Shown here: positions 5,061-64,000 of the stretch, one piece after another
Position numbering within the stretch: the first letter of the stretch is position 1
Layout of the letters: every line of letters starts with the position of its first letter
Origin: Sclerodactyla briareus
Lineage: Eukaryota; Echinodermata; Holothuroidea; Dendrochirotida; Sclerodactylidae
Direction of reading: 5' to 3'
Assembly: GCA_026419785.1 (NCBI GenBank)
Contig: JAODTK010005628.1
Location: 62,001-126,000 of the forward strand
DNA: 64,000 nt
The notes under the pieces: model-generated
What the model was told of the DNA's origin: nothing
Database searches by the model: none
Seen by the model: the letters and a program-made list of their open reading frames with translations, nothing else
Position numbers and translations under genes: made by a program

Positions 5061-6829
5061 GCATTAGATTCTCAGATTCTATAGGGGTCTATAGAGTTCT
5101 GAACAAATAATCTATAGAACTATATAAGAGTGACTACTGCTTACATCGTTGAAATAGAAATCTTTTATAGAAAATCTATAGAAACTATATAGAATCTCTA
5201 GAAAAAGATGAGCTCAATTTATCGAAAATGGCCTTGTCTATAGAGACCTATAGAACTCTATAACACGTCTATAGAATTCTAATATAACTTTCTCTTTCTT
5301 GTAAGGGTAACGCCCTGAAAGGAGTTGGTACCCTGGAAACTATTGCGTAACGACTTAGCATCTTGTTCTTGGTGTTGGACACACAGTGCAGACAACTCGA
5401 GTCGTGATTACTTACTTCGACTACGTGACGCTTAACCTGAACACCGACGCATATCAACCCCAGGAGTACTTCGCCGATGACACAGCCCGGGTATGTCGCA
5501 AATTCCCACGACCCCACCCCCCCCCCCCCCCCCCCCTCTCCGTCACAGTTCGTCAAGCACACTGACATATCCCGACCGCGGACGAGAGAGGGTATCATCG
5601 CCCTTCTCCGACCGCGAGTCTTTTAGCGGGCCGCCATTTAGCTCCCCTGTTGCTCTCTTACTGTTCCCGTCAACTCCCACCCGAAATTAGCACCCGCAAT
5701 CCCCCCCAAACGTTCCCTGACTTTGGACCCAACCCTATTCTGACCATAAAAAACATTCGGTTGAGGGGAATTGTCCGTGGAAATCTCCGTTGGGAATTGT
5801 CCCGGTCAGCTATTAATATGTCTATGGGTTTATCTCCATGGGGATGTTAGCCGCGCATTGTCAGAAGAAAAACAACCCCCAGTCCTCTCAGGATTAATTG
5901 GGCCAGCTCGATCGCAGTTGCATAGCTCTGGGGTTAAGGGGGGTACTCGGTTACTGCAATATGTATAATCACTCTTTGTGTATGCATTTGTTAAACCATT
6001 GTGATATGTTTATATTCTGTACAATCACTTGTGAGAAAATTCAGTGTCTACGATTGTCCAAAGAATTCTACAGAGGTTGTGCTACCATATTGCGTGGGTG
6101 CCAGACCTTTCACCTGTAATAGCCGGGGAATACAACCGTGCATACTTGCCATCGACGCAGTCAACTTACCTTCTGTTGCGTTACCTGACTATCCTGTTTT
6201 GGTATGTTTGCCCGGCCCCGTCGTCCCGCGTCGTTTCAAGACATTGTAGGGCGACTACACCTTTACCAGCGACTCGTTCGCGAAAATTGACGTTTTGTCA
6301 TGGTTCAAGTCCATTTTGCCGAATTCAACCGAAAGAATCATGTTTATTAACATTGGCATAGCTCTATGCTGTCTGTCGTTAACGCACAAGCTCCCAAAGG
6401 CGTTTTGAAAGCAAACTATAGCTTCAAAGGCCCACATTTGTGCAACAGATGGCCTGGTCCGTTCTGGAGTTACAGTGGCAGTGAGTATTCATAACGGCAC
6501 AGCGTGTGTGCGTGCCAGCTAAAAATTTCGCGCAACAGGTCCAACACACATTTCAATAGGCTTTCACTGTGGTCAAGCAAGTTAGTCCCATTTTTCCATA
6601 ACAGCGTCACACCCCGGTGATTGATACCGGACGAATACTCCTCCCCTAACAAATATCCTCTGCTCTCAACGTTATGGTAGGTGTTATAGATGCCTTGTAG
6701 GTCATATTTAGACTCCACTATAGTATCATGGAGGTTCGTGATCCATCACCTAACGAAACAAGTTTCATTCGTCTTTTTTCTATACCGAACACCATTGCAA
6801 ATCCCAGAAATTTTGCAGCATGGTTTATT
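5061..6829. other. No recognisable gene; TCTATAGA cluster and a long C-run
   Basis: 5070-5280 repeats the TCTATAGAA word. 5514-5536 is a C homopolymer interrupted by a few bases. The rest is unique-looking sequence without recognised coding content. Confidence 0.5.
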
Positions 6830-13195: not shown

Positions 13196-16100
13196 GTAGA
13201 CCTTCTGACTAAAATTTGTATTACCTTGCTTCCTTCACTCCTATATTGAGTATTTGTTTTCCCCATGCCTGAGGATCAGTCTATTGTCACACTCATTGCT
13301 TCATACACTGGCAATTATTGTGGAGTGTCAAACTTCTTTGCAATCTTTCATGAATCAGAATTTCCACCGAGGATTTAAGGGTTTTATTAGGAAGAGGAGT
13401 AAATTATTAACTTAATATACAGCTTGATTGATATTAATAAAATTGCAGTCTGCATTGCAGCAGGTTTAAATTGGGTCTGGACAGTAGTCCAGTGTTTGAG
13501 CCGAAGGTCAATGTCCAGTTGTTTGTTAACTTGTCAAACGTCTAGGGGTTTTTGCCATTTTTCACCAGTCTTGACATGTTTCAGTGGTTTCGGACACTCG
13601 CCACTGTCCCAGCTAAAATAGATTTTGGACAGTCTAAAAACAGAATTCTAGTTTCAGGTACAGTAAGCCTGGTAGGGCCAATGTCCAGTTGATTATTATT
13701 TCGTCAAATACCCTGCTAATTGCACATAACCTTCCAGTAATTATTCTAGACAACAATAAAACCTGTTCATGGGTCAGTTAATCCCATCAAGTAACAACTT
13801 ACAAAAAACTGCTTGTCAGGTTTTAGTAATTAATAATTTGTGATGTTGATGGAATACTACATGGCAGTAGTAACCAAGCTTACTCTGATTGTAATTACTT
13901 CGATTAAACCTCAAAAATCATGTTGTGGAATCTGTTCACCTGAATGAAATTCAGGAAGAGACTTAGTGGTCACTATGGCGTGTGTGTGTGTTTGGGTGTG
14001 TGGGCCAATAATGATCGAAATTTGTGTGTAGCACCGGGGCTGGGTGTATACAATCTGATTAGATTCTGGACAGCAAGTCATCAAGTTGGGTTATTAGCTT
14101 ATTTTATGTGATTTATTGCTCAAGCTTGTTAGCAAGATTACGCAAGAACCGTATGTGCCACAGTTATGTAGTTTTGCATGTAAGACTTGGATGACAGGTA
14201 GATGAACTGATTGGATTTTTCAGACTAAAATATGCTAATTAAGTGGTCTAATTGCATAATTATGTGAATTTTCAAGTTCGTCAGATTTTCACGAACTTGG
14301 TGGATGTGGATTCCATGGTTTCCGAGAAATTTAAAAGTGAAGTCGGGGTCACTGGAGGTCATTTAATGTGTCTGAAATTGTGGTCATAATTTCATGTAAT
14401 TTTTGAAAGTTGTTGGATTTCCACAAAACTTGGTGGATGTGTTCCACCTTGATCCTGATCATTTAAAGGTACAGCTGGGGTCAGTAGAGGTCAATTGTAT
14501 GTGCCTAATTTGCATAATTATTCCAATTTCCAACTTGGTAAGAATTTTGCCAAACTCAGTAGGTATGTCGTTTAACATTTCTGGGTCTGATGTGTTTGAT
14601 GTTCATGAATTTGATTGTAATCCATCGTATAATAATCTGCTAGAACACTGAGGAACGAGTAAACCATAGCTCCTGTGACAGTTTTACTGCTGTTAGAAGC
14701 TGCCCACAAGGGCAAACCCTCTCTTCCCAACAAATTTGATTGGTGAGTGACTACAAAAATAAGGTATCATTTTTCTTTTCGTCTCTTCTTACCTGGGGAA
14801 TACTTTTGTATTAAGAGTAGAAACGTATGGTCAGTTGATTGAGAAGTTTGATGTGTTATGTGAAATTATGTGATGATCGTTTGACATGACGATGGTCTGC
14901 ATGAAATATTGGTTGTTTGTGTGTTAAACCACCCATCGATCGCGCAACCAGGCGAGACACTTTTTTGGCGATTGCCTTGTATTGATAATTAAACCTTTTC
15001 CAGTTGTTATCACTTTGCTCTAAACTCGAAATCAATATTGTTCTGGAATCGGTTTTGTTAGTAATTCCTTTCCCATTTGTTATCACTTTGGTTAAAACTC
15101 AAAATCATTATTGTTCTGGAATCTGTTTTGTTGATAATTACACCTCTTCCATTTGTTATTACTTTGGTTAAAACTCAAAATCATTATTGTTCTGGAATCT
15201 CTTTTGTTGATAATTAAACCTCTTCCATTTGTTAGGACTTTGGTTAAAACTCAAAATCTTTATTGAATTGAATTCTTTTCAAAGATGATAATTGTTTTCC
15301 TCATCAGGTGCTATTTGGGGGAAACACCAAGTTGACTTTGATAACTGGGAGATTGAGGTGACCTTCAAAGTGACTGGCAGAGGCAGAGTTGGTGCTGATG
15401 GATTGGTGAGTACTTTAGGGTTTCAGGTTGAACTCTCCACCATATAGACTGTTTTCATAGTTATATCCCCACAACACAGGTGTTCAGGGATATTATGGTT
15501 TTGGGGTGTGCCGCCGTCTCTGCTGCCGTCGCCGCCACCTTCGGAAACTTCAGGCGTTACTGCAATAATTCTCTAACGCTTTATCCGATCGATCTAAAAC
15601 TTGGACACAGGCCATCCTAGTGATCTCTGGACGAGTTTGAAAGTGGGCGTCGTTGCATGTCTGCTGCCCTCTATTTCACATGAAAATACAGAGTTAGTCC
15701 GATTTTTACCAAAAACTTGGTGGGTGGGAACAAGCAATGTCCCGAAAATCATGACAGTGATTTCAAGGTCACCGGAGGTCAAATTTGTGTTTTTTTGGCG
15801 AAAATACAGAGTTAGTCCGATTTACATGAAACTTGGTGATGGGGACAAAAGTTGGTCTCCAAAACATGACATGACATTCAAGGTCACCAGAGGTCAAATT
15901 TGTGTTTTTATTCGTGATTTTGTAACTTTGTTGCATTTGAACGAAACTTGGACAGTTGGTTCCTGAAAAGCAGGGTAGGGCATTTCAATACCAGAGGTCA
16001 AACATAGACAGAAAATTGATGTGCTTCCTTTGAACGAGGTCAACCAAAGGCCAGTTTGCGGAGATATACACGTCGTCGCTTTACCCGCCTGCACATGTCT

Positions 16101-19100
16101 AGTTGGCCTTGATAGTCGATTATTTGTCAATGTCCAAGCTTGATCTAAACTGAACCTGTTTCATGCTTTCAGGTTAGTCATTCTGGTCGTGGGGTGCCAT
16201 TTGGGAGAGGTTTCATTAGTGACAAAACTAATTTTTGTTCATACTGCTTGCCTAAAAGACAAACTGTTGCTCAATGCCCAGAGATCTCTGGCATTTGTGG
16301 GTATGGGAAATAACTATATCACCTCTCTGGAACCACTTTATGGTATCAGTTGAATAAAAATATGCACTGCAGAGTTGTTCACAGCAGGGCTCACAGAGAA
16401 GGAAAACTCGTTGTAATATCCTGATGGTTGCTTGAGATGGCTGAGGGAAGAAGAAAAGGTAGCGAAGATGAAGAGAGTAAGGATAATTTTGAGGGGAGGG
16501 TCTCCAATGTTGAGAGCCTGGAGTAAAAAGGTTGTCCCGGTGGGACACTAGTAAAACACAGATAAAGCATTTTCTTTACTTACATCTTGCTTTTCATATA
16601 TTTCATCCAGGGTAAACTACAAGGTGCACCGGTGGAAGGCCAGTGTGAGAGTTCATTGCGATGAAACACCATGCCAAATGACGATTAAAATCTTGTTATT
16701 TCTATACATGTGAATTCTCCCTGACCAAATTGATACACACATAATAGTAATACACATCATTCATAACATGTCTTGTGGGCTACTTTTACTTATTTTCTTG
16801 TATTGTTGGTCATCTGACCATCTGGAAATTACTTTGTATCATAACCTAACATGGACTCTCACATAACTCTTGCATGCAGTTTTGTGCACTTCGATGCTGT
16901 TACTGTAAAATAGGTTGTTTATGAATATCCCATTGTGTAAGAAACATCGGGAATGCAGTGAAATCAACATTTTCTCCATTTTTTTCTCGTCTGAACAACC
17001 TTCAAAAAGAGACTTAGAGCGTGTCTAAAGTTTACAACTGATGACTACAACATAGTCATCAAACCACTGACATAGTTAGGGTTATTGCTGATTGTTTAGG
17101 CTTGTTAGTCAAGTTATGGACAATCAAGGTGCTATGGTGATATGGTTTGCACTAGGTACCTGCACAGAATATAAGTAGATGAACTGATCAGATTTTCAGC
17201 GTTAAATGTGCTAATTAAGTCGTCCACTTGCCTAATGCAAATTTGGTGAATAACTTGGTGAATATGGTCTACCGTCAGTCCCAAACTTTTTTTTACAAAG
17301 ATTCAGGTTCACTGTAGGTCATTCAATGTGTTTGATCTGCATAATTCATTGAAATCTTTTGTTGGACTTCCATCTGGTGGTTATGGTTTACCTTTCGTCC
17401 AAAGTTCTTCACAATAGATTCAGGTTCACTGGAGGTATTCAATGTGTCTATTTGCATAATTTATGCATAAATTTGAAATTGTTGTATTTTCATAAATGTG
17501 GGGGGATGGTTAAAGTCTATCCAGCTTTAATCATGTCCTCCTATCCAGCCACGGCCTACACATACTATGGTAATCTATTGTATTGGAACTGAATACAAAC
17601 AACACTTGAAGAGAATTTGTTGAAAAGATAGTATTAGGTCAAAATTTGTAGTTTCATGGAATAGGTCCCTGTGGCTAAACATATATATTAGTTTTAGGCT
17701 TTTTTTTTCAATTTGCGAACTGATCACTATTTTCTCCGATATAGAGATGATTTGAGTGCCTGTAATTTTGTCCGTAGTACTTCTGAAGATTTTTTTTTGG
17801 TGAGGAATGAATGGGGACGTCATTGTAAATTTATCAAAATATTTCAAAGCTGAATGGAGCCTCAGTCACTCAATTTTTAACATTGATTGGGCACTGGGGG
17901 TCATTCAATGTGCTTAATTGTTTCACTCATGCAACTTCTGGAGTTCCTCGGATTTCCATGGAGGTATTGCGTGCAGTCCACCATTGATCCTGAGATATCT
18001 GAAGTTAGAGAATGGGCCACTGGAAGTCATGTTGTGTTTATTTTGCAAACTTTGGTTTTGACATAATTTTAGTCACATTTCAACAAAACTTAGTCTCGTT
18101 CGGTAGAAAGGAAATTTCAGCAATCAGTCTTGATAAATTTATAATTGGTCACTGATTAGGTCATTCATAGGTAGTGTACTCAGGGGCTGGCAACCTATAT
18201 CCACCTCTATGTGCTTTCTAATTAAATCACTGATATTTTGGCCTCCCGGCTATTCTTTCCCCTTTTTTTTCCAGGCAATCTGGTTATTGCCGAGCAGCCC
18301 GGGGTCGAAGGTCAGTCTTGGGGAGCCAGGATAAGTGGGTGGGGATAGGGGTCTTCTTCGATTCCTTTGATAATGACAACCAGAAGAATAACCCGTACAT
18401 CCTGGTTATGACCAACGACGGCACCAAGGCCTATGACCACAGCAACGACGGACTGATGCAGCAGCTAGGGGGGTGCATGAGGGAGTCAGGAACAAACCGT
18501 ATGCGGTCAGGGCCAGGATATCGTACTACCAGAATACTTTCACGGTAAGAATATGTGCAGGGGTCGAGATAGGCAATCATAGCCAAGGTATGTTAGACAT
18601 GAGGGATTTCAGGAACAAACCGTTTGCGGTCAGGGCCAGGATATCGTTACTACCAGAATACTTTCACTGTAAGATATGTGCAGGGTTCGGAGATAGGCAA
18701 TCATAGACCAAGATATGTTTAGACATGAGGGATTCAGGTACAAACCGTATGCTGTCAGGGCCAGGATATCGTATACCAGAATACTCTCACGGTAAGAATA
18801 TGTGCAGGGGTCGAGATAGGCAATCATAGACCAAGGTATGTTTAGAATGAGGGATGTCAGGTACAAACCGTATGCGGTCAGGGCCAGGATATCGTACTAC
18901 CAGAATACTCTCACGGTATGAATATGTGCAGGTTCGAGATAGGCAATCATAGCCAAGGTATGTTTAGACATGAGGATTTCAGGTACAAACCGTATGCGGT
19001 CAGGGCAAGGATATCGTACTACCAGAATACTCTCACGGTATGAATATGTGCAGGGTTCGGAGATAGGCAATCATAGACCAAGGTATGTTTAGACATGACG

Positions 19101-22100
19101 GGGGGGGGGGGGGCGCGGTGGGATTTCAGGTACAAACGTATGCGGTCAGGGCCAGGATACGTACTACCAGAATACTCCACGGTATGAATAGTGCAGGGGT
19201 CGAGATAGGCAATCTAGACCAAGGTATGTTTAGACTGAGGGATTTCAGGTACAAACCGTATGCGGTCAGGGCCAGGATATCGTACTACCAGAATACTCTC
19301 ACGGTATGAATAGTGCAGGGTTCGAGATAGGCAATCTAGACAAGATATGTTTAGACATGAGGATTTCAGGTTACAAACCGTAGCGTCAGGGCCAGGATAT
19401 CGTACTACCAGAATACTCTCACGGTATGAATATGTGCAGGGTTCGAGATAGGCAATCATAGCCAAGGTATGTTAGACATGAGGGATTTCAGGTTACAAAA
19501 ACGTATGCGGTCAGGGCCAGGATATCGTACTGCCAGAATACTCTCACGGTATGATATGTGCAGGGTTCGAGATAGGCAATCATAGACCAAGATATGTTTA
19601 GACATGAGGGATTTCAGGTACAAAACCGTAATGCGGTCAGGGCCAGGATATCGTAATACCAGAATACTCTCACGGTAAGAATATGTGCAGGGTTCGGAGA
19701 TAGGCAATCATAGACCAAGATATGTTTAGACATGAGGGACTTCAGGAACAAACCGTATGCGGTCAGGGCAGGATATCGTACTACCAGAATACTTTCACTG
19801 TAAGAATATGTGCAGGGTTCGAGATAGGCAATCATAGACAAGGTATGTTAGACATGAGGGATTCAGGTACAAACCGTATGCGGTCAGGGCCAGGATATCG
19901 TACTGCCAGAATACTCTCACGGTATGAATAGTGCAGGGTTCGAGATAGGCAATCATAGGCCAGGATATGTTTAGACATGAGGATTTCAGGTACAAACAGT
20001 TTGCGGTCAGGGCCAGGATATCGTACAACCAGAACACTCTCGTGGTATGGATATGTGCAGGGTTCGAGATAGGCAATCATAGACCAGATATGTTTAGACA
20101 TGAGGGATTTCAGGAACAAACCGTATGCTGTCAGGGCCAGAGTAGAATACTACAAGAATTCTCTCACGGTATGAATATGTGTCAACAACTCAGGTTCAGT
20201 GGTTTCTGTCCTGGAATTGGGTAGAGACACACGCACACCCTACAGTGTCCTATGGGATATGGAGTAGGCATGAGGGAATAGCTGTTACCAGGTGGTGTGT
20301 GCCTAATGATGGATGAAAATGATAGATGAGAAATACATTCAGCATCATACTGCATGTATATATGTCAATATGACAGAAAAGATGAGTCTTGTCCTTCAAT
20401 TGTGAAAGTATACACCCCCTTCAATACTGAAAGGCCGGACTTACATTGCTGACATCACTACGGAAATACATATGCCAGTGTTGTCTTGCTTTCAGAGAGT
20501 GTAGATTAATCTGAAAAACAATATAAAAAACAACAAGCAACATATGTGCTGAGGGATATGTCCATCACAGTGGAAGATGAGTCGTTTCCTTAGGATCAGT
20601 ATGCACTACCCAGGTAACACTGTTGTGCATTTTGATCAGTGATTCACTCATACCTTTTTATCAGTTGGTGGTGTGGGTTCAAAAGCCAGTCCATTTTCAA
20701 GTCTAGGCTCAATCATTGTACTGTTGCAACTAGCAACTAGAAGCCCACAAAATGCAATCTTTTTTGGGTAGAGGGAGGGGGGGGGGGTGGGGTCACTACT
20801 TTTTCCAGGTCTCAGAAACCACCCCCATGACAAAGTATATACATACCTGAGTTCACAGGAATGAGTTTATTAGGGAATGGTTGCAAAAGGAAATACTCCT
20901 GAATGTCTAATCTGCAACGTTTACCTTGGAGCATGAGACAATGGCCCCTACCAGTGATAACATTAGAGAATGTAACCTTGCATCCTGCCTAAAACCTGAA
21001 CACAGAGTCCATGGAATATTGTGATGGTTGTGTACGATGGTTTTGGCAACAACAAGAACAAAAAACATAATGTGTGCCACGGTTAAGGTAATGTTGAATG
21101 ACACATATTGGTATGCAGTGACTATATAGTTCCAAGTGTACTCCCCACCTCAACCTATCTCCTCTTTACACAGCACTTCCTCTGTTTGACCTATCAATGC
21201 GAGGTCCCACCCCATTCATTGTCTCTATCGCCAGATCATTACTTATAGTATCATTTCAGCACAGAAATTGTTCTGCTGTTCCTGCAAGATACAAGAATTT
21301 GAAGGAAAACCAACCGAGAAAAAAAATCTTTAGGACTGAATGCTGTTTTCTCATATCCATATTCAAAGGCAATTATTTTGTCTACCGACCGCTTTTAAAA
21401 ACCACTGCATCACTAATTTCCGATCTGTTTCTCCACCTCATAAAGGTGTTCTTCAACAACCCGGTTGTGTGAGCAAAACGATTACACGTTTGAGCTGTGC
21501 ATGAGAGCGGAGAACGTAGTCCTCCCAAAGAATGGTTACTTTGGAGTGACTGCTGCCACAGGTGCCTTGGCTGGTGAGTATGCTGCTGGTTACTGATTCA
21601 CTGCCCTCTGATTGTACCTTTGCTCCATCAGTATGATCAAGTGTACATACATACACCCAGCACCCAGTCAGTGAATGCTCTAACCTAACGTACTTCACAA
21701 CCTGCACTACCCGGTCCCACTGGTACAACACGCCTACTCAGTTTTATTATCCATTCCACACCCGAAGGTTGCTGCAGCTGAGTAAGGAATTCCTCAGTCG
21801 GAAATTTGGTAAGGCTCCAGTTTTGGGTGTGGAAGGACAATGGCGGATCTCGCCTACTCTTTTCGAAGATTTCCCTGAGTGACGAGGCAGAAGTGAGAAT
21901 TCCTGCTCCCAGGATTGGCCATTTAACGTCCCCATCCGACAGACGGGAGTGTAGCTTCACTCGTCAGCCACTTTCCTACACGAGGAAGGAGCGGGATGAA
22001 AGTTGGTGGTCTGTGACAACACCACCAGGGGTTTGAACCAGGGACCTCAGGCACTGCAGGCAGACACTCTACCGTTCCTGCAACCTCACTGCTCTGATAG

Positions 22101-28100: not shown

Positions 28101-31100
28101 ATCGCCACCTGACATCTACTCATCGCCACATTAAAATTCACGTCACTCCCTATTTGTCGCCAAAATAACGTTGCCGTTTTAGCCGTTCCGTATTTATGAG
28201 GTGCATTTCAATTTGGTATGGTCAGAAAGAAGCAAAGCTCACGCCCGGGATCGACATGATGAGTACAATGTCACAAATGAGCAAGGTAATATCTGTGAAA
28301 GCACTTTGAGCTTGTCTTTGACTCGGAGGAAGAAGCCCTATATAAGCACCCATAATATTATTATTGATAATATGACCATGAGGTATTGTTCTTACAATAT
28401 CTGATTTCCTTCTCTTGCACAGGTGAGGATGATTACTCAAAAGAGGACCTAAACCTTATCGTTTGAGGACAGACTAACATCTACAAGAGTAAAGGTAGCT
28501 GCACTGATACGTTTAGCTTTTTTTTTTTTTGAGTTAATCTGCAGAATAATACGGTATAATTCCTAATATGCACCCTTTGTAATGTTTCAATGAAGTGAAG
28601 AAGCATCATTCCACCAAGGTGAAAAAACAAAAGAGTCTGCTGTGTCAGCCAAACACAGTGGTGTTAGTGAGATGAAATTTGGAAGCCTAAACTTGCCAAA
28701 ATGATATTTTAGCCCAATAAATTACTCTTGAAATTATTGCCCCCCTCTCTGAAAATGTTATCCCCCGGGAATTTATACCGAATATTCAAGATGGATTGTC
28801 GTCTGCGGGGGCAAGTATATTGTTCCAAGTTTATTTTAATGACGACAATCCATGTTTTTAATATATATGTTTCTGCCCAAACATCTAAAGTGTGCAGCCA
28901 ATATCCCCACCATTCACACTCAAGTTCATACCCTCAATCATTTTTACACTTAGGCACACAAAGCATTTTCTTTCACTCCTTTTTGAAACCACATTCTCGT
29001 TTCCTGGCAGTGAGAGAAGGGCATGAAAGATCAGGGTTATGACTGATAATTTGGATTTGATAAAGAGTCTTTTCCTACAAACAACTATTTTGATAACTGG
29101 TGTTGTGACTATATTTAAACCACATCTGGCCGCTCTTCACCGAGGAATTCAATTCAAAATCCTTCACTAGTTATGATAATTGGAGTGCTAGGTTTATCTC
29201 TTTAAAATGGCCAGTAAAACGTAGCAGCTACTATCAGGGGGAAACCCTTTTTTTCTGTCGATGGTGTGAAGCTTGTTCGTCTATATGTTCTTTTGTTTGT
29301 TTGCATCATTTATAACCAGGGGCCCAGTCACTGGCCACCCAGTGTTCTCCCCAGGGTCCCTGCACAAACAAGAGAGGACAATAAAAATACAATAACTATA
29401 TCAAATTAAATCATATAAACTTCAAACCAACAGTAAAATACTCGAGGCCAATCCAATTACAGTTACCAGAATTCCAATCTACTTTCATGGCACGTTTCGT
29501 TTAGATTGAAAGTATTTGTATATTGCACATCCAAATGTCTTGAGCAAAGCATTCCAAGATTTACGCCTGGCTAGATAAAAGTCGCCTCCCCCAATTAGGT
29601 GCCGAACGTGGAGGTAAAACCAACAGAGCGGGAGAAGCTTTGTAGCATTATTCTATAGGGGAGACATGAAACAGACTATCACAAGGTAATCCGGAGAAGT
29701 GGCATATTAATCTTTGACATAAAAACCTGACAATGGTAATCCACCTTTTACTCATAGAAAACCATGAATGCTTGAAAGCACATCAGATGTGGGGGTAGTC
29801 CTTGGAAGAGATCTAGAATGATCCGCCAGGATCTACCTTGTAGGGAGATAAAACACTTTTGCTATACTTATTGTAAAGTGTGGGACCAGATACAGCGGGC
29901 ATAATCAAAATGGGGGCTAAGTATGCTATTAAAAACAATATCGATAGTTGTTGTGGATATATTATTACCCTTCCAAGAATCCCCAAGTCGGCAAGAGATT
30001 CTTGCAAACCATAGGAAACTGTTCCGTGAAGGTCAAGGGGGGTACTTCCAACAAAACTCCAGTTACCTAAAAAATCCTGTTTAAATCTTGAGAATCATGT
30101 TGAAGTGGACCAGCTCTCTTAGCATAGAGGTGTTCCAAAAAGCTGCATTTTGTTTTTTCACATTCAGGGTCAATCTGTTTTTGATTAACCACTTACCAAT
30201 CAGAAGTAAGAGCACAAGAAAGAACTTCTTGTACATCATCAGAAGTTCAGAACCATAAATGAGGGCTGTATCATCTGCATAAAGTGTTGCGGCTTTTACT
30301 GCAGCAGAAGGCACAAGTCATTAATATAAATAGAGAAAAGTAGTGGTCCATTAATGGAGCCCTGTGGAACACAAGTTAATACCCACCACATCAGATTCTT
30401 TATCTGCAATCTGAACAATCTGGCTCGATCGCATAGGTATGAACTAAACCAATCCAATGTTGGGTCACTAACTCCACAGGAGACCAGTGTCTTAAGCAGG
30501 ATTTCATGATCAACTGTATACAAAAGCCCTACTGAAATCAAGAAAATGAAAGACTGAGTAGTAATGTAATGTAAGGTAATGTAATTGTACAGATATCTTC
30601 TTCTTGGACACTGTCGCTGTGGGATGGCAGCATGGTGTCATGGTCTGCGTGAGGCCCAGGCCTCCTAAGGCTGACAGATGGGGCACATGAAACCATTTAT
30701 ATCAGATTCACCCCAGCACCGTAATAGAAAGTGTCTGGAGGAGTGTGTGAGGCTAGTTGATGCATTGTTGATGCAAGATGCAGGCCTGTTAATATGCATC
30801 GTGAAGAGAATAGCAAATACATGTGAGATGAGATGGGGTCAGTGTCTGATTGTCCTAATTAGTTTGAAATGATGGATTATATCTTGGTCCAAGAGCCAAC
30901 GAAATCTAATGAAAGAACCCATCCTAAATAGACCAAATGCATATACAAATGCATTAGTACCGCGAATGAATTCTATGAAATATCTTCCCAAAAAAAAGGC
31001 CAGTCAACAACCATATGCACGGGATGCTGCATTTTTATGTTCTTTCCGCATGTAAACCACGTGTGTAGTCTTTCGAACAAACGCTCGTTTTCGTAAATAT

Positions 31101-33196: not shown

Positions 33197-36100
33197 CCCC
33201 CCGTAGACTGAATGCTTTTGAAGTGAAATTAATTTGTGAATTCAATGAAATCAAAGAATGTTGCAGGGTTGTGCAAGGGGGAATCATGTATTATTGCTTG
33301 ATGGGACACTGTTTTTATCTTGCACAAATTTCAGAGACTGTAACTCTGTTAGTATGAACTGAGGGTTTGGAATGCGCATGTTTTTTCCAGATGATTATAA
33401 TTAGTCTCTTTACAATTCTATCTGCCATTGTCCTTCAAATCTGTCGGTGATTATTATTGAAACCACCTAGTACTACTTCTATCCTTGTTTAGCTCTGTGT
33501 AGGGCTTTCCTTTCTCGGTGCCCCTAATCCTCCCTCATTTACCACAGCAAGTTTTATTTGACGATCTCATGTTGGATTTTACGATTTCATGTTTATTCCC
33601 ACAATTTCCATATGTTTATTTTACGTCTACTTTCATGTTCACAGGGAACTTGAGAAGAAGCTGGATGAGATCGTCGTAGCAGACGGACGATATCAGTCAT
33701 CTCTAGCGCCCAGTCTGGTGGGGGATGGCCCCTACTCACCAGCAGGGTGGAGCCCCAGCAGGGGGCGCTGGGGGAACTATCGCCAGGCACGAAGTAGACA
33801 CCTAAGAAACAAAAACAGAACGTATCAGTTATAACGTCAGGGATTTACAGTAAGTGACATTTGCTTACTAAGGGTCTAATTTGTTCATTCTGGGAGCAGT
33901 GCGAAGGGAGGAATTTTTCTCACTACCTTTCTATGGAGGCATTGTAAATTACACGTCTTCACATTTTGCTTCTTGATAATATGCAACGTTCTGACAATTC
34001 TGCGCAAAGTTCTTCCTTCAATTCCTTGACAAGTCAGAGGAATCTATGCAGTCATGTTAGTGTGTGTGTGTATTTGTGTGTGTGTTGTTTCAACATAAGA
34101 GATGCTTGAAACTGGGTGCGTAGCTCTCTCATGGGGTGTACAAGAATCCTATTGTTGTTAGCTCATCAGTTATACTTGTTGAGCTATTGGAATCTGCATG
34201 CCAATCTATCTATCTATTCATCCATCCTCATTCCGGCTATCTTGTTTGCTATTCAGCTGGCTATCCAGCTAGCCTACCAGCTACTATCTGGCTATCTATC
34301 CGGCGAGCTAACCGGCTATCTATCTATCTATAAATAGCTATCTGGCTATCTATCTATCCGGCTATCATCTATCTGGCTATCTATCTATATATCGTAGTCT
34401 GTAAACTTTCACTTTTTTGGCCACCAAATGTTCGTGCTTTGATGGATCTGCACCAAACTTGGTCACAATGATTATTGACTGATTGGTCATTATGACCATG
34501 TGAAGGTCAGGTTCAAATGGCATTAAAGATGCACATTGGGCTATTAGTGGAAAAATGCAAAATGCTACTTCTCTTGCAAATTAGATCAGATTGCCACGAT
34601 GCATGACTAGTGTAATTATTGACTATGGTACTATGAGTCCCACATATTTAAGGTGAAAGGTCCTTAAGGGGGTGGGGGGGGGTAGTAGGCAATTCTGTTG
34701 GAATTGTAAAATCAAATATGCACATTGCATGTTTTTGGCCCTTGAATTACTAATGCTTTGATGGATGTTGACCAAAGTTGGACACCAATATTCCACTGCT
34801 GGGTGACCTCTGACAACAAAAGGTCAAGGTCAAAGGTCATTGAAAGAGCTTAATGGGGCCGCGAAAAAACAAAAAAAACCCAATCATTGTTGAAAAGTAG
34901 AATAAAGTTCTCCCTCTCACTCAACTATAAGTTGGATTTTCATGATGCCTCGTTCAGTGTCATCATTGACTAGTGGTACCTGTATGGCCATTTGGGAATT
35001 TCAGGTCAAGAGTCATTAAAGTGATTATGTGAATCATGTGAAAAAGTTGCCCAACGCCCGAATGGGATATAAACCTCTCTACCCGTCTGTGTGTGTACAG
35101 TGACCTTGAGCTCTCCAAGCACTGGCATGCGAGAATGTTTGCACAACATCCTATAACCCATCATACAGTTCACTACATATTGTGATATAGTTTCCAGTTT
35201 TGAGCCTACTGACCATTGGTTCTCTAGTTCATGCTTTGTTGATTTCCCTATTTCTCGCTCATCTGAGCAACGTTGAATTGTTTCATTTATAACTCATTAT
35301 CACTCTTGTTTTCAATTCTGACGTAATGCATTTGTTAGGGTTGTAACAGTTAGGACTTTTCAATACTGTTCCACATGAAATGACTGAAGTAATGGAATAG
35401 TTCTGTGACTCAAGTCAGTGACTCGGTGTAAGAGGAGAGGATAGGAGGTGTCTACGTATTGTAATTTTATTATTATCTTCCACTTTTTCTAGTATCTTAA
35501 CTGTTACTGTTCGCTGTCTTTCTGTATTAGCTAGTGTAATAATTTGTACATTTCCCGTAAGGTGCCGTTAAAGCATTAGGCTAAGCCTACAGTCTAGTCT
35601 TGTAAGTTTAGTTTGGATTTGATTTCATATTTAGAGTCAGATGGTTAAAGGTCTTCTTCGATGTTTATATTGTTCAGTGACTTCAGTCTAGGGTTCCTTA
35701 CGGCATAATTACCTTCTTTGCAAGCGCAATTTGTATACTCCCCACTTGTACTACCAATGTAAGGGGGGCTCGATTCCACCGACTGCACGTTGTCGTCGGC
35801 GGTAGTTGTAATACTGGCCGCCCGTCGAGTATAGGGAGATCCTTATACGGGTTCCAATGCAGGGGACAACGTATTTTCCTTTTGAACTGTTAATTACAAT
35901 CCTTTACAAAATAAACAGGATTTCTTAATGAGCTCAAAATGGATTGATAACTGAATAATTCGCGAAGGACTAAGGCTAAAACCCTAGTCTACATAATTTA
36001 CTTAAATAATGTACTTAATTTATTCTGGCCTATCTACTACCTAAAACATAGATGACCTGTCACTAATGACTCAAAAATAAAAACTTAGCTGATCTCTTCT

Positions 36101-45100: not shown

Positions 45101-45885
45101 CGCTCCACAGCTTTTGCAAAACTATGCCATGTCCTGGTGAATCCTAGGCCAAAAGAAGAGCCTGCGGAACACTCAATAAGTGCAACCTGTGTATTCCTCT
45201 GGTACACAGTTTGGTGGAGAACCTGCCAATCCTTGCTAGCCGATACTTCTGGGTGTTGCAATTTTTTCATCAACACTCCCGATTGCGAGAAATTGTTACC
45301 ACAAGGCACTTCAATATCAATTCTTGCTCAGGAAGAGCTGAATTTCACAATTTGCTGATTTGATCATCACTCTACTGCTGGGAGATCAGCAATTTAGGTT
45401 CTAAGGGAACCGACTTGCCCAAACTAACCGGTTTCACTGTTGGATCTGATTTAGCAGTTTCATGGACAGGAATTGATGTTTAAAGAATGTTCCAGCCAAC
45501 GTGAAACTCTCATCCCCCTCGCTAGGTTTGCTACTACCTATATCCTCTACCTGACAGGCCATGGATCAAGTGGTAACCCAGGCCAGTGGAACCATGAAGT
45601 GGAGACCAAGACCACCCCCCCCCCCCCCCCCCCCACCTCCCATCGCAACTGCAGGTACAGTCACCTAGGGAATAACGCTCGGTGACTGCTGGGACTTGAA
45701 CCTGAAATGTTTGCTCGCAAAGTGTCACTGATACCACTCTGGCGTTCTTCCGCCATTCTTCGGCCATTCTTCGGAGTTATCATTCTTCTTTCTTATGGCA
45801 CTCAAAATATGTAGCCAGTAACACCAATGTTTTTCTGTTTGATCGCAGGAGTTCAAAGGAGGCTGCAGCCAAGAAATTCTATTAA
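13139..45885 (+). CDS. LMAN1: LMAN1/ERGIC-53-like L-type lectin cargo receptor, multi-exon, 5' exons not found
   Basis: Twelve plus-strand exons follow the order of animal LMAN1: L-type lectin domain, acidic and coiled-coil stalk, one membrane segment, and a short tail ending KKFY. In known family members this type I membrane protein cycles between the ER and the ERGIC, binds high-mannose glycoproteins with Ca2+, and uses a C-terminal dilysine/diaromatic signal for COPI and COPII. The recognised exons encode roughly 450 residues, so about 60 N-terminal residues (signal peptide and first lectin strands) are unaccounted for relative to the usual ~510. I did not find them upstream of 13139. Exon order, GT-AG sites and most junction phases agree. 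Several exons carry 1-2 base losses, and there are stops at 24661, 28464 and 33803. It may be an intact gene in an error-rich assembly or an unprocessed pseudogene. The family call is secure; gene integrity is not. Confidence 0.9.
13400..14650. repeat. Degenerate tandem repeats with AGGTCA half-sites (LMAN1-like intron 1)
   Basis: Two copies of a 'gtccagttg' block (about 13455-13545 and 13660-13720). Then about 110-bp units carry cacaaaacttggtggatgtg and GGGTCA-n4-AGGTCA (14346-14361 and 14478-14493). Non-coding. Confidence 0.65.
14985..15262. repeat. 84-bp tandem repeat, about 3.5 copies, just before exon 2
   Basis: Units contain tttgttatcactttggttaa, then actcaaaatcattattg and ttctggaatct. 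Copies start near 14985, 15060, 15128 and 15215. The array ends about 45 bases before the exon 2 acceptor. Confidence 0.85.
15308..15405 (+). CDS. LMAN1: LMAN1-like exon 2: lectin beta-sandwich core
   Basis: The exon reads ...FDNWEIEVTFKVTGRGRVGADGL, the most conserved part of the L-type lectin fold in LMAN1 and LMAN2 (W-E-[IV]-E-V-T-F and G-R-[IV]-G-A-D-G). The acceptor is tcatcag and the donor is a strong gtgagt. It starts in phase 1, joining exon 1, and ends in phase 0. No indel is apparent across its 98 bases. Confidence 0.93.
15440..16090. repeat. Interspersed repeat with internal DR4 AGGTCA units (intron 2)
   Basis: Starts near gttatatccccacaacacag and includes a CCGCCGTC-rich stretch. 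Two internal units share aaatacagagttagtccgat and end in AGGTCA-n4-AGGTCA (15766-15781 and 15881-15896). No intact coding frame. Confidence 0.6.
16091..18160. repeat. Intron 2: degenerate 'tcattcaatgtg' repeats, otherwise unremarkable
   Basis: About 17170-18160 holds diverged units with aggttcactg, aggtcattcaatgtg and tgcataatt, related in style to the 14.2-14.6 kb repeats. 16091-17170 shows nothing recognisable. Confidence 0.5.
18275..18544 (+). CDS. LMAN1: LMAN1-like exon 3: Ca2+/sugar-binding part of the lectin domain
   Basis: The acceptor is tttttttccag. The exon begins AIW, continues AEQPGVEGQ, then LGSQDKWVGIGVFFDSFDND, then KNNPYILVMTNDG, YDHSNDG and NKPYAVRARISYYQNTFT before donor gtaaga. 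The D-S-F-D-N-D and YDHxNDG motifs are the ones that coordinate Ca2+ and mannose in this family. These blocks lie in frames 0, 2, 1 and 0 relative to the exon start: three successive single-base losses near 18286, 18312 and 18485. With them restored the length would be 273 bases and the exon would end in phase 0, as exon 4 requires. The last ~70 bases are copy 1 of the 124-bp tandem array that follows. Confidence 0.92.
18477..20175 (+). repeat. 124-bp tandem array of the exon 3 end plus 5' splice donor (about 14 copies)
   Basis: Fourteen head-to-tail units begin with an ATGAGGGATTTCAGG-like motif near 18477, 18599, 18725, 18847, 18970, 19095, 19232, 19357, 19478, 19603, 19731, 19853, 19976 and 20099. 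Spacing averages about 124 bp. Each unit contains the coding end of exon 3 (RDFRxKPYAVRARI then SYYQNTLT), its donor (gtaaga or gtatga), and about 55 bases of intron reading gtgcagggttcgagatagg and on. Copy 1 is the true exon end. Copy 6 carries a 14-G insertion (19099-19112). Copies differ mainly by single-base deletions and by N/Y after DFR. The unit junction lies inside the exon, so this looks like expansion by unequal exchange or slippage rather than retroposition. Confidence 0.95.
20176..21445. other. Remainder of intron 3
   Basis: Sequence after the 124-bp array, with a G-run at 20776-20788. No gene or clear element recognised. Confidence 0.5.
21446..21573 (+). CDS. LMAN1: LMAN1-like exon 4: lectin domain
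   Basis: After cctcataaag the exon starts V-F-F-N-N in phase 0, joining TFT of exon 3. It continues in another frame as NDYTFELCMRAENVVLPKNG followed by YFGVTAATGALA, then donor gtgagt. This matches the LMAN1 strand with an ND-Y-x-F-C motif and the ATGGLADDHD turn. Between NN and NDY there are 16 bases where the family pattern needs 18, so two bases appear to be missing around 21461-21476. The exon ends in phase 1. Confidence 0.9.
21740..22115 (-). mobile_element. tRNA-headed SINE, minus strand (intron 4)
   Basis: On the minus strand from about 22115: an A-box-like acggtagagtgtctgcc and a B-box-like ggtccctggttcaaacccc (about 22025-22050). A body containing cggatggggacgttaaatgg follows, a motif common in invertebrate SINE bodies. 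About 370 bp, diverged, non-coding. Confidence 0.7.
22369..22433 (+). CDS. LMAN1: LMAN1-like exon 5: end of lectin domain (ADDHDVL motif)
   Basis: The acceptor is ttttttctcag. The split codon makes GALA-D, followed by D, then H-D-V-L in a shifted frame and a further shift before LTHSLDQ and FPKE. LADDHDV(L) is diagnostic of LMAN1-type lectins. Two single-base losses, near 22374 and 22388, explain the shifts. With them restored the exon ends in phase 2 (ag|t), matching exon 6. The donor is gtacag. Confidence 0.82.
22434..24590. other. Intron 5, nothing recognised
   Basis: No repeat family or coding homology recognised. A C-run lies at 24386-24396. Confidence 0.5.
24591..24681 (+). CDS. LMAN1: LMAN1-like exon 6: start of stalk, with in-frame TAA
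   Basis: The acceptor is cttctttcag and the donor a consensus gtaagt. The reading LTSGQITEEEADKFNKEF then DEYTK matches the E/K-rich segment after the lectin domain in LMAN1. An in-frame TAA at 24661-24663 is followed by SHAEEA and a phase 0 donor, and the frame continues cleanly into exon 7. A single substitution (for example from a glutamine codon) would account for the stop. No frameshift is needed. Confidence 0.85.
24682..26260. other. Most of intron 6, nothing recognised
   Basis: Unique-looking AT-rich intronic sequence without coding homology. Confidence 0.5.
26284..26547 (-). other. Coding-looking ORF opposite LMAN1-like exon 7 (unrecognised)
   Basis: A minus-strand frame reads ERGELVHFKLEPYGLFLRRL, then APRLRWNIHMFLNDADQLTE, then QQVADMAAQ. 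It has the look of selected protein sequence. The frame meets a cag|gtaatc donor-like site near 26300 and a stop shortly after. Its upstream part overlaps exon 7 antisense. I do not recognise the family; a mobile-element gag fragment or a stray exon are possibilities. Only one exon-sized block is seen. Confidence 0.3.
26522..26572 (+). CDS. LMAN1: LMAN1-like exon 7: stalk, YREKHPEI segment
   Basis: A 51-base exon between acceptor atctttcctatag and donor gtaagt reads YREKHPEIKDDYDEADY in phase 0 on both sides. The KHPEI portion corresponds to the KGHPDL-type motif that follows the E/K-rich helix in vertebrate LMAN1. No lesion is visible. It lies immediately beside a coding-looking minus-strand ORF. 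Confidence 0.85.
26573..27935. other. Part of intron 7, nothing recognised
   Basis: No homology or repeat structure recognised. Confidence 0.5.
27940..28365. repeat. Interspersed repeat fragments, including a SINE-type 3' tail
   Basis: 27940-28080 contains gaccgggcgacgcaaaattgc-like and attgccctgtcacc words typical of a dispersed marine-invertebrate repeat. 28295-28365 (gcactttgagcttgtctttg, gaagccctatataag, then ATT-rich) resembles the 3' tail of the SINE at 40.1-40.5 kb. Confidence 0.5.
28423..28488 (+). CDS. LMAN1: LMAN1-like exon 8: stalk (GQTNIYK), with in-frame TGA
   Basis: After tctcttgcacag the frame DDYSKEDLNLIV, stop, GQTNIYK matches the LMAN1 segment around VFEGQNRIH. The TGA lies at 28464-28466, where the family has Glu. 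The start is ambiguous. The better acceptor gives 28423, but phase 0 from exon 7 needs 28428 (after gtgag). Donors at 28489 (gtaaag) and 28495 (gtagct) both leave phase 1 while exon 9 needs phase 2, so one base is probably missing. Boundaries are approximate. Confidence 0.65.
28500..29315. other. Intron 8, first part; nothing recognised
   Basis: Contains an 11-T run and AT-rich sequence. No homology recognised. Confidence 0.45.
29320..30560 (-). mobile_element. Degenerate LINE reverse transcriptase fragment, minus strand (intron 8)
   Basis: Minus-strand blocks in order: TVDHEILLKTLVSCGVSDPT (about 30510), LDWFSSYLCDRA, CVPQGSINGPLLFSIYINDL (about 30360), and TLYADDTALIYGS with catalytic YADD (30281-30270). 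A C-terminal region around SILSPHFDYA in another frame follows. The 3' end near 29325-29400 has ggggagaacactgggtgg and is A-rich on the minus strand. A 5'-truncated, frameshifted non-LTR element of different sequence from the one at 11.4 kb. Confidence 0.88.
30561..31544. other. Intron 8, middle; nothing recognised
   Basis: Short A-runs and TAATG repeats (gtaatgtaatgtaaggtaat near 30560). No gene evidence. Confidence 0.45.
31545..31900. repeat. Interspersed repeat fragment with 'TATATAGCGCCTTT' head
   Basis: An ATA-rich lead followed by ctatatagcgcctttac, agtgctttacagagcc and ggagttccacagtagg. The same family appears at 39540-39600 and 41600-41900 and, as the downstream part, at 27.9-28.1 kb. 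Confidence 0.6.
31901..33644. other. Intron 8, last part; 34-T homopolymer
   Basis: 33163-33196 is an uninterrupted T-run followed by CCCCCC, and a C-run lies at 32958-32966. Nothing else recognised before exon 9. Confidence 0.5.
33645..33849 (+). CDS. LMAN1: LMAN1-like exon 9: coiled-coil stalk, with frameshift and TAA
   Basis: The acceptor is ttcatgttcacag. The first frame reads ELEKKLDEIVVADGRYQSSL, matching the LMAN1 coil around LD-x-I-x(5)-RY-x-SSL. After a frame change near 33735-33745 the reading is GGAPAGGAGG, TIARHEVDT, stop, ETKTERISYNVRDL. This aligns with the family's Gly-rich hinge and the QQELDTVVKTQHEI helix. The TAA is at 33803-33805. The donor gtaagt at 33850 leaves phase 2, which exon 10 completes. 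Glycine-rich slippage or sequence error could explain the frame change. Confidence 0.8.
33850..35100. repeat. Intron 9: CTAT/GGCTATCTAT microsatellite and AGGTCA-bearing repeats
   Basis: 34195-34395 is an imperfect (CTAT)n array with interspersed GGCTATC units. 34430-35060 holds two or three degenerate units sharing 'ttgatggatctgcaccaaac' style text, including three AGGTCA motifs spaced by 0 and 1 base (34821-34839). Confidence 0.7.
35101..36500. other. Intron 9, middle; nothing recognised
   Basis: No gene or definable element. Confidence 0.5.
36540..36870. repeat. Degenerate tandem repeat around 'tactcagtaatgcaactct' (intron 9)
   Basis: Three to four units sharing acaatattgactcagtaat, aactctaaccatg and gtaggagca at roughly 60-110 bp spacing. 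Confidence 0.6.
37256..37408 (+). CDS. LMAN1: LMAN1-like exon 10: coiled-coil stalk, C-terminal half
   Basis: A 153-base open exon after a long T-tract acceptor (tttttttttctag). It reads GVIGDVQQKTAAYIPQRD, then LLDHEIKDKLNQLSQDC, then KLYAQVPR, and ends before gtcagt. Residue similarity to vertebrate LMAN1 is weak here, as expected for the coil. Both junction phases fit: it completes the phase 2 codon of exon 9 and leaves ag|g for exon 11. Heptad-like hydrophobics are present. The DC may correspond to the stalk cysteines used for oligomer disulfides, which is inference. Confidence 0.72.
38263..38379 (+). CDS. LMAN1: LMAN1-like exon 11: membrane-spanning segment
   Basis: The exon starts after tattcctatcag in phase 2 and ends FFVCYFMYR before a weak donor gtagtt. 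The last codon is split ag|g and joins exon 12. CLIQT in an adjacent frame followed by FFVCYFMYR corresponds to the end of the LMAN1 membrane helix (VVQTVLFIGYIMYR type). In the single open frame a 13-A run (38321-38333) gives lysines inside what should be a hydrophobic helix, so the middle is probably shifted twice. The N-terminal part (RLPETVQTFGVSL) is plausible but less certain. Confidence 0.7.
   Translation, partial: AVAGDCPDLRCLSLFFAFPKKKKSYCLIQTFLRMLLHV
38380..40125. other. Intron 11, first part; small repeat fragment at 39540-39600
   Basis: 39540-39600 (cttatatagcgctctccacg, gctctttacaga) is a short piece of the TATATAGCGC family. The remainder shows no recognised gene. Confidence 0.5.
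40128..40545 (+). mobile_element. tRNA-derived SINE with conserved 3' tail
   Basis: The head has a good A box (ggattagctcagtcgttcag, about 40136) and B box (gagttcgcagccc, about 40187), so it resembles a tRNA-derived pol III promoter. About 250 bp of body follows. The tail reads gaagcgctttgagcatgtct, then gaagcgctatatcaga, and ends in ATT-rich repeats at 40530-40545. Apparently complete, about 410 bp. Not a functional tRNA gene: the acceptor stem does not pair. Confidence 0.85.
41595..41905. repeat. Interspersed repeat fragment, TATATAGCGC family
   Basis: Contains catttatatagctctaatac, gatctaagcactttttacc, an A-rich stretch (41681-41704) and an 'attccatgagagaatc' block. The order is the same as at 31.5-31.9 kb. 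Confidence 0.55.
42241..42262 (+). repeat. 22-C homopolymer
   Basis: Uninterrupted run of C at the 3' limit (minus strand) of the gypsy RNase H remnant. Confidence 0.95.
42265..42850 (-). pseudogene. Ty3/gypsy RNase H remnant
   Basis: Minus-strand blocks NYSTIEKETSALVLAAENF (about 42565-42510), then YPLVHLGRFKNKSTRL and LNIVHILEKNVMANALGG (about 42395-42340), match the RNase H C-terminal half of Ty3/gypsy pol. The end, of ADALSR type, is here ANALGG. Frameshifts separate the blocks. No integrase follows; the sequence runs into the 22-C run. Confidence 0.85.
42900..43680 (-). pseudogene. Ty3/gypsy reverse transcriptase remnant, preceded by the integrase tail
   Basis: Minus-strand blocks: an FSGPY integrase-tail motif (about 43640), then HHDVDVGEARLIKQHPYR (43600-43545), the text leading into any gypsy RT. 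Next come PWGHNDF (about 43430), DYK and LTVTDPP (43385-43350), and MPFGMKNSEA (43200-43171). The last block reads EEFFDRLAKANLTV (about 43065). The YxDD catalytic pair is not readable (LITAYIIIYT instead). The short distance between the integrase tail and the RT lead-in shows that they are contiguous in one element, with a deletion between them. Confidence 0.85.
43690..44390. mobile_element. Unidentified ~700-bp insertion within the integrase remnant
   Basis: On the minus strand the integrase C-terminal text stops near 44395 (a KVLV-type block) and resumes near 43680 (an FSGPY block). Between them lies unrelated sequence with a repeated cacgcgcagaacc-like motif (43874 and 43978) and a 17-T run (44261-44277). 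No matching terminal repeats or clear target duplication were found, so the class is open. Confidence 0.5.
44390..45360 (-). pseudogene. Ty3/gypsy integrase remnant
   Basis: Minus-strand pieces in several frames resemble the zinc-binding H2C2 region (about 45300-45100) and the pre-core PIPGVGVPF block (about 45045). The end of the DDE core follows, with SSAYHPQSQGAFEHYHQTLK (about 44780-44720) and its catalytic Glu present. After it come STGTSPFG, EVRGPL and NVLDLF (44640-44510), the usual post-core region. Frames change repeatedly and the middle of the core is missing. Confidence 0.85.
45606..45745 (-). mobile_element. Possible tRNA-headed SINE fragment, minus strand
   Basis: The minus strand has gccagagtggtatcagtgac (A-box-like) and caggttcaagtcccagcag (B-box-like) in tRNA spacing. 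It runs into a C/G homopolymer (45606-45624). It lies about 100 bases upstream of exon 12. Body and tail are not defined. Confidence 0.45.
45849..45885 (+). CDS. LMAN1: LMAN1-like exon 12: cytoplasmic tail and stop
   Basis: After tttttctgtttgatcgcag the exon completes an Arg codon and reads SSKEAAAKKFY then TAA (45883-45885). This is the LMAN1 tail (RSQQEAAAKKFF in vertebrates). The dilysine and terminal aromatic residues are the COPI retrieval and COPII export signals. It joins MYR of exon 11 in phase 2. Intron 11 is about 7.5 kb and holds a gypsy element and SINEs. Confidence 0.92.
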
Positions 45886-63850: not shown

Positions 63851-64000
63851 TTATGGGCTATTCACGTGGCTGGCAAGATGAGAAGATCAATGGGGTGGCA
63901 GAACCCGATTTGTAGTAGCTGACAGGTTTTTTGCGATAGTGCAATGCACATGGGGTGGGTTGGAGGGTCCAATATGGGGTGAGTTGAATAAATGGCACAT

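Follow-up and report, generated by a model that had tools for sequence, protein, structure and literature searches.

A stretch of 64,000 nucleotides from the holothuroid Sclerodactyla briareus (contig JAODTK010005628.1, positions 62,001 to 126,000; hereafter the window) carries on its + strand much of an animal LMAN1 (ERGIC-53) gene, in which the end of a lectin-domain exon, its 5' splice site and the first part of the following intron are repeated together in tandem. The repeat is probably a neutral, boundary-spanning minisatellite of the kind known from amphioxus as 'mirages', with the donor of the first unit doing the splicing, and we put the probability of this reading at roughly 0.8. The LMAN1 array is a further example of an arrangement that is already known; its remaining interest lies in the coding copy, which is apparently involved in the turnover of the repeat, and in the last unit, which keeps an unbroken but different exon end.

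The array and its unit

The host gene was identified by tblastn with human LMAN1 as the query, which gave strong matches at 15292, 18312, 18488 and 21471. The open reading frame (ORF) at 18234-18545 matches ERGIC-53 structures in the PDB (E 7e-18) and the Pfam family Lectin_leg-like (E 5.7e-19). The exons flanking the array are here labelled D and E, and the intron between them is in phase 0, as judged by eye. The relevant features are as follows, with a slash marking the splice point:

18275..18544, + strand: LMAN1 exon D (label of this analysis; lectin domain), from tblastn, PDB and Pfam matches, with limits set by eye at ccag/gcaatc and acg/gtaaga
18476..20184, + strand: boundary-spanning tandem array of 14 units with a 125-bp consensus, from Tandem Repeats Finder (TRF) and wrap-around alignment
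18476..18597, + strand: unit 1, the coding copy, with donor ACG/GTAAGA at 18545
18724..18846, + strand: unit 3, with a second strong donor at 18792
19094..19234, + strand: unit 6, which has 21 inserted bases in two events over its length, including a G-rich insertion close to the start
19603..19730, + strand: unit 10, with a third strong donor at 19675 and a TAA stop in its exon-like part
20099..20184, + strand: unit 14, truncated and most diverged, with the unbroken exon-like part MRDFRNKPYAVRARVEYYKNSLT
20269..20277, + strand: native-intron copy of CATGAGGGA, identical to the 9 bases that open a unit, a candidate duplication breakpoint
21446..21573, + strand: LMAN1 exon E (label of this analysis), which follows exon D, from the tblastn match starting at 21471, with limits set by eye

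TRF reports the array at 18476-20181, with a period of 123, 13.7 copies and a score of 2430 (rows of 247 and 245 bp cover the same array), and the wrap-around alignment divides 18476-20184 into 14 units. An earlier note on this DNA, made from the letters alone, had proposed 14 copies of 124 bp at 18477-20175, which was essentially right, as was its description of an LMAN1 exon end, donor and piece of intron in tandem. Each of the 14 copies spans the exon-intron boundary: the final 69 coding nt of exon D are followed by the 5' splice site and then by some 55 nt of intron. The units open with CATGAGGGA, which lies inside exon D, such that the final 69 nt of the exon form part of unit 1. The 23 codons of the exon-like part read MRDFRYKPYAVRARISYYQNTLT in the consensus, and the exon end in unit 1 reads ...RNKPYAVRARISYYQNTFT. 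A two-unit (247-bp) period was considered and rejected, as units two apart (lag 2) are on average no closer to each other (3.9%) than adjacent units are (lag 1; 3.5%). Within unit 6, a long run of G and a short insertion rich in G occupy positions 19094-19130, and more long runs of G or C occur near 20780, 45610 and 46939.

The array would have begun with the tandem duplication of a segment that took in the last 69 nt of exon D and continued into the intron, perhaps between the CATGAGGGA motif of the exon and a second copy of it in the intron. Outside the array, the motif has a single + strand copy in the window (at 20269, 85 nt past unit 14) and none on the - strand, and it is expected 0.00045 times in the 90 nt after unit 14. 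A source for the parts of the unit elsewhere in the window was also sought, and no match stood out. Unequal exchange or conversion would subsequently have grown and homogenised the array, apparently with the coding unit 1 included, and the far edge (units 13-14) would have drifted; the pattern is described below, and the process is proposed to account for it. Copy 1 would join the native exon to a strong donor, with the other 13 units left as intron. The array is presumably tolerated because copy 1 keeps both the native exon and a strong donor, so that a normal exon can be made.

Variation among the units

That the copies are real is shown by substitution variants that are shared and linked. 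Ten of the 26 distinct variants are common to at least 2 of the 14 units, compared with 2.5 expected for 46 randomly placed substitutions and a maximum of 9 in 2000 trials, and when units 1-13, without unit 14, were tested for linkage across 9 sites, 25 of 5000 permutations reached the observed level. These results bear on the suspicion that the boundary is present in a single copy or a few copies, which a noisy assembly multiplied into an array. The assembly is indeed rich in insertions and deletions (indels) even in ordinary exons, with single-base frame breaks seen by eye at 6417-6482 and 18275-18310, as would be expected of a noisy long-read assembly; unit 6 contains its long G run; and a mirage in the draft genome of Branchiostoma floridae was itself misassembled (PMC3087553). 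However, read error would not build sub-families, and the linked substitutions, the diverged far edge and the unique sequence on both flanks make an artefact improbable as the origin of the array. The consequence of the frame breaks in ordinary exons is rather that the indels between units (14 insertion and 34 deletion events) may largely be errors, that those of a single base are unreliable, and that the exact copy number of 14 is insecure.

Divergence is lowest inside the array, where units 3-12 show a mean pairwise substitution difference of 2.9%. The difference from these units is 4.3% for unit 1, 5.1% for unit 2, 7.7% for unit 13 and 9.5% for unit 14; over the 85 columns covered by unit 14, the values are 5.0% for unit 1, 10.1% for unit 13 and 9.5% for unit 14. 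Low inner divergence with diverged units 13 and 14 fits concerted evolution with an excluded edge, the excluded edge being the far one only. In units 1-13, four-gamete conflicts were found in 16 of 45 pairs of 10 sites, which suggests that units have exchanged sequence and that the coding unit 1 has been included. The TTC (F) of unit 1 recurs in units 2 and 11, its GTAAG in units 2, 3, 10 and 11, and one G in units 3 and 6, so combined as to look recombinant.

No coding constraint is seen in the additional copies. Of the 21 changes in the exon-like part of units 2-13, 6 are synonymous, 14 are non-synonymous and 1 is a stop (variants shared by units being counted once per unit), where 21% synonymous would be expected by chance, and over units 1-13 the density of substitutions is 24/895 in the exon part and 15/697 in the intron part. 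On both counts, with the exon part at least as diverged as the intron part, these copies look non-coding. A coding tandem-repeat exon, as in a repeat protein, was rejected on the 125-bp unit, the stop in the consensus reading and the 6 of 21 synonymous changes in units 2-13.

It is conceivable, although doubtful, that the coding end of exon D, a conserved lectin exon, and the satellite that it has in the intron evolve in concert, and that exchange with non-coding copies may rewrite a conserved beta-strand, with unit 14 keeping an alternative (RVEYYKNSLT). Where unit 1 has F (TTC), unit 14 and human LMAN1 have L. Unit 14 differs from the consensus by 7 substitutions, 5 of them within 16 columns (region 20140-20165), by 1 deleted base and by 2 inserted bases, and despite this patch its exon-like part stays open and lectin-like.

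A further reading, which we consider very improbable, would make unit 14 a retained alternative exon end with the array sitting in a composite intron, as an early intron gain or a tandem alternative exon. In its favour, unit 14 reads without interruption, the lectin piece scores 90.4 bits against Pfam with the unit-14 end (89.1 with the unit-1 end and 87.5 with the consensus end), and the amphioxus globin paper proposes that mirages lead to new introns (PMC3087553). However, a gain of 1.3 bits is not meaningful, the unit-14 donor is weak (GTATGA, -4.4 kcal/mol), and it lies 55 nt from ttcag/g and, by hand count, 71 nt from tttag, both of which are out of frame.

Donor strength and reading frame

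A GT donor is kept in all 14 units, and yet the earlier note's picture of about fourteen competing, nearly identical donors does not hold when their strength is estimated as the duplex energy with the 5' end of U1. The strong donor ACG/GTAAGAAT is present only in units 1, 3 and 10, at -8.2 kcal/mol, and the other 11 units have donors of -4.3 to -4.7 kcal/mol. The donor of copy 1, which the note had called the best-looking, is thus one of the best, tied with those of units 3 and 10. The energy of the unit 1 donor places it in the best 1.7% of the 3679 + strand GTs in the window, and the level of the weak donors is reached by 17-21% of them; four other LMAN1 donors that were examined have energies of -6.5 to -11.1 kcal/mol.

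As the note had supposed, use of the later donors would add sequence to the mRNA, but such messages would, on the evidence of the consensus, mostly be frameshifted or stop-bearing. When a GTAAGA donor is read through, the consensus translates as VRICAGFEIGNHRPRYV and meets a stop after 17 codons, and the GTATGA donor of eight units reads as V-stop at once (unit 13 has GTATGG). The further suggestion that ttcag/g acts as an acceptor, with units spliced in as in-frame repeats, runs into the distance to the donor. In the consensus this comes to 55 nt, or 1 modulo 3, and since the intron is in phase 0, inclusion of one unit would put the message out of frame. In the raw units the distance ranges from 52 to 57 nt and equals 55 in 7 of 14; departures from 55 are assumed here to be indel noise.

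The competing view is that alternative LMAN1 proteins are made, with the donors of units 2, 3 or 10 used in some messages, which would lengthen the lectin domain by at least one unit, or with units used as small exons. We regard this as unlikely, though somewhat less so than an assembly artefact, and part of the evidence in its favour is also evidence against a neutral array. In the sequence as written, the reading frame of unit 1 stays open on passing into unit 2 (VRICAGVEIGNHSQGMLDMRDFRNKPFAVRARIS); the donors of units 3 and 10 equal that of unit 1 in strength; and the distance from ttcag/g to the donor is 54 or 57 nt, in frame as written, in 5 of 14 units (3, 8, 9, 10 and 11), such that the reading-frame argument may change if some of the indels are real. 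In human ABCA7, moreover, exactly one donor-bearing unit of an intronic variable number tandem repeat (VNTR) is retained (PMC5954066). On the other hand, the open reading from unit 1 needs indels that are absent from the consensus, the unit 2 donor is weak (ACT/GTAAG, -4.3 kcal/mol), units 2-13 are without coding constraint, the unit retained in ABCA7 is out of frame and unchanged by VNTR length (PMC5954066), and the amphioxus mirages are reported as leaving splicing undisturbed (PMC3087553, PMC3902484).

Other observations that weigh against a neutral minisatellite, or against parts of its proposed history, concern the origin of the array and its turnover. The alignment of the unit tail to the native intron is equalled by 39 of 1936 random segments, and a 23-base match in the native intron shares the top rank when one unit variant is used but comes lower when the other is. 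Duplication between the CATGAGGGA motifs is an attractive mechanism of birth, but the breakpoint was chosen post hoc. Four of the 16 four-gamete conflicts use column 10, which is beside an indel, and column 88 is in a G run, so that some conflicts may be miscalls. The open, lectin-like reading of unit 14 is not predicted by simple neutral decay. Normal splicing of LMAN1 at the unit 1 donor is, for its part, a prediction from the DNA sequence.

Comparable arrays and the rest of the window

Mirages were reportedly first described by Canestro et al. in 2002. The earlier note had considered an array seeded in a coding exon to be unusual, but precedents exist in amphioxus, where minisatellite-like tandem duplications of exon-intron boundaries occur in Adh3, the globins BflGb6 and BflGb9, troponin C and PGBD5 (PMC3087553, PMC3902484). 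These show concerted evolution with excluded cluster boundaries and undisturbed regular splicing, and have been proposed as a route to new introns (PMC3087553); in the PGBD5 paper, repeats of 60 and 108 bp lie over splice sites and troponin C is named (PMC3902484). The LMAN1 array is alike in its boundary-spanning unit that copies a splice site, in the many units that keep splice signals, and in concerted evolution with an excluded edge. Its unit length (125 bp) is of the same order as those of Adh3 (10-72 bp), BflGb6 (150-160 bp), BflGb9 (157 bp) and PGBD5 (60 and 108 bp), and its 14 units, on the single haplotype that the window represents, compare with 6 and 3 in the two BflGb6 haplotypes. 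LMAN1 is not among the mirage genes named in the excerpts of PMC3087553 and PMC3902484, no LMAN1 array of boundary repeats appeared among the literature matches listed (open-licence papers), and a search of open-licence papers for duplicated 5' splice sites gave no match.

In the case of human ABCA7, intron 18 contains a VNTR of 25-bp units that begin at the exon 18 donor, with about 12 to 427 units, and as its length increases, skipping of exon 19 rises; the VNTR raises the risk of Alzheimer's disease (PMC5954066). Donors are repeated down the intron in both genes, whereas the ABCA7 unit is only 25 bp, has no exon part described in the excerpt, and has had its splicing effects measured (PMC5954066). 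Tandem duplications with splice signals are also associated with intron gain, as in a potato RdRp gene (PMC4974935) and in human internal tandem repeats (PMC2812944); the LMAN1 array likewise copies splice signals, but it lengthens an existing intron, with no new intron shown. The 14-unit case is thereby added to a little-studied class of splice-site-copying repeats, which are natural tests of donor choice among many and of the ability of repeat turnover to rewrite coding ends or seed introns.

A second array in the gene, with 3.8 copies of a 76-bp unit at 14982-15265, stops 43 bp short of LMAN1 exon C (15308). It is not counted as a mirage because the similarity of its unit to the acceptor region is equalled by 360 of 3971 random segments.

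Elsewhere in the window (G+C 41.5%), annotation is partial, as 39 of the 310 listed ORFs (at least 60 amino acids) were scanned against Pfam. Among these, the lectin domain in exon D was the only match above cut-off, and of 8 matches under the cut-offs only two look meaningful, one to a reverse transcriptase (E 1.4e-05) and another, weak one to a lectin. The former is an ORF on the - strand at 30299-30637 (RVT_1, 25.4 bits, cut-off 29.6), perhaps a retroelement remnant judging from this match. A tblastn match at 63957 (E 4.0) was rejected as a further lectin exon, with no clear exon there by eye, and the window gave 0 Rfam matches and 0 ARAGORN genes. For LMAN1 itself, weaker tblastn matches at 6417 (E 0.049) and 13141 (E 0.037) are collinear with the gene. 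No stem exon was found with confidence between 21.6 and 45.8 kb, the best tblastn candidate being near 33643 (E 0.13). The C-terminal end RSSKEAAAKKFY lies at 45847, likewise collinear, with a weak tblastn match (E 1.7; 0.11 in another search), and the C-terminus at 45847-45885 reads KKFY, the counterpart of which in human ERGIC-53 is KKFF.

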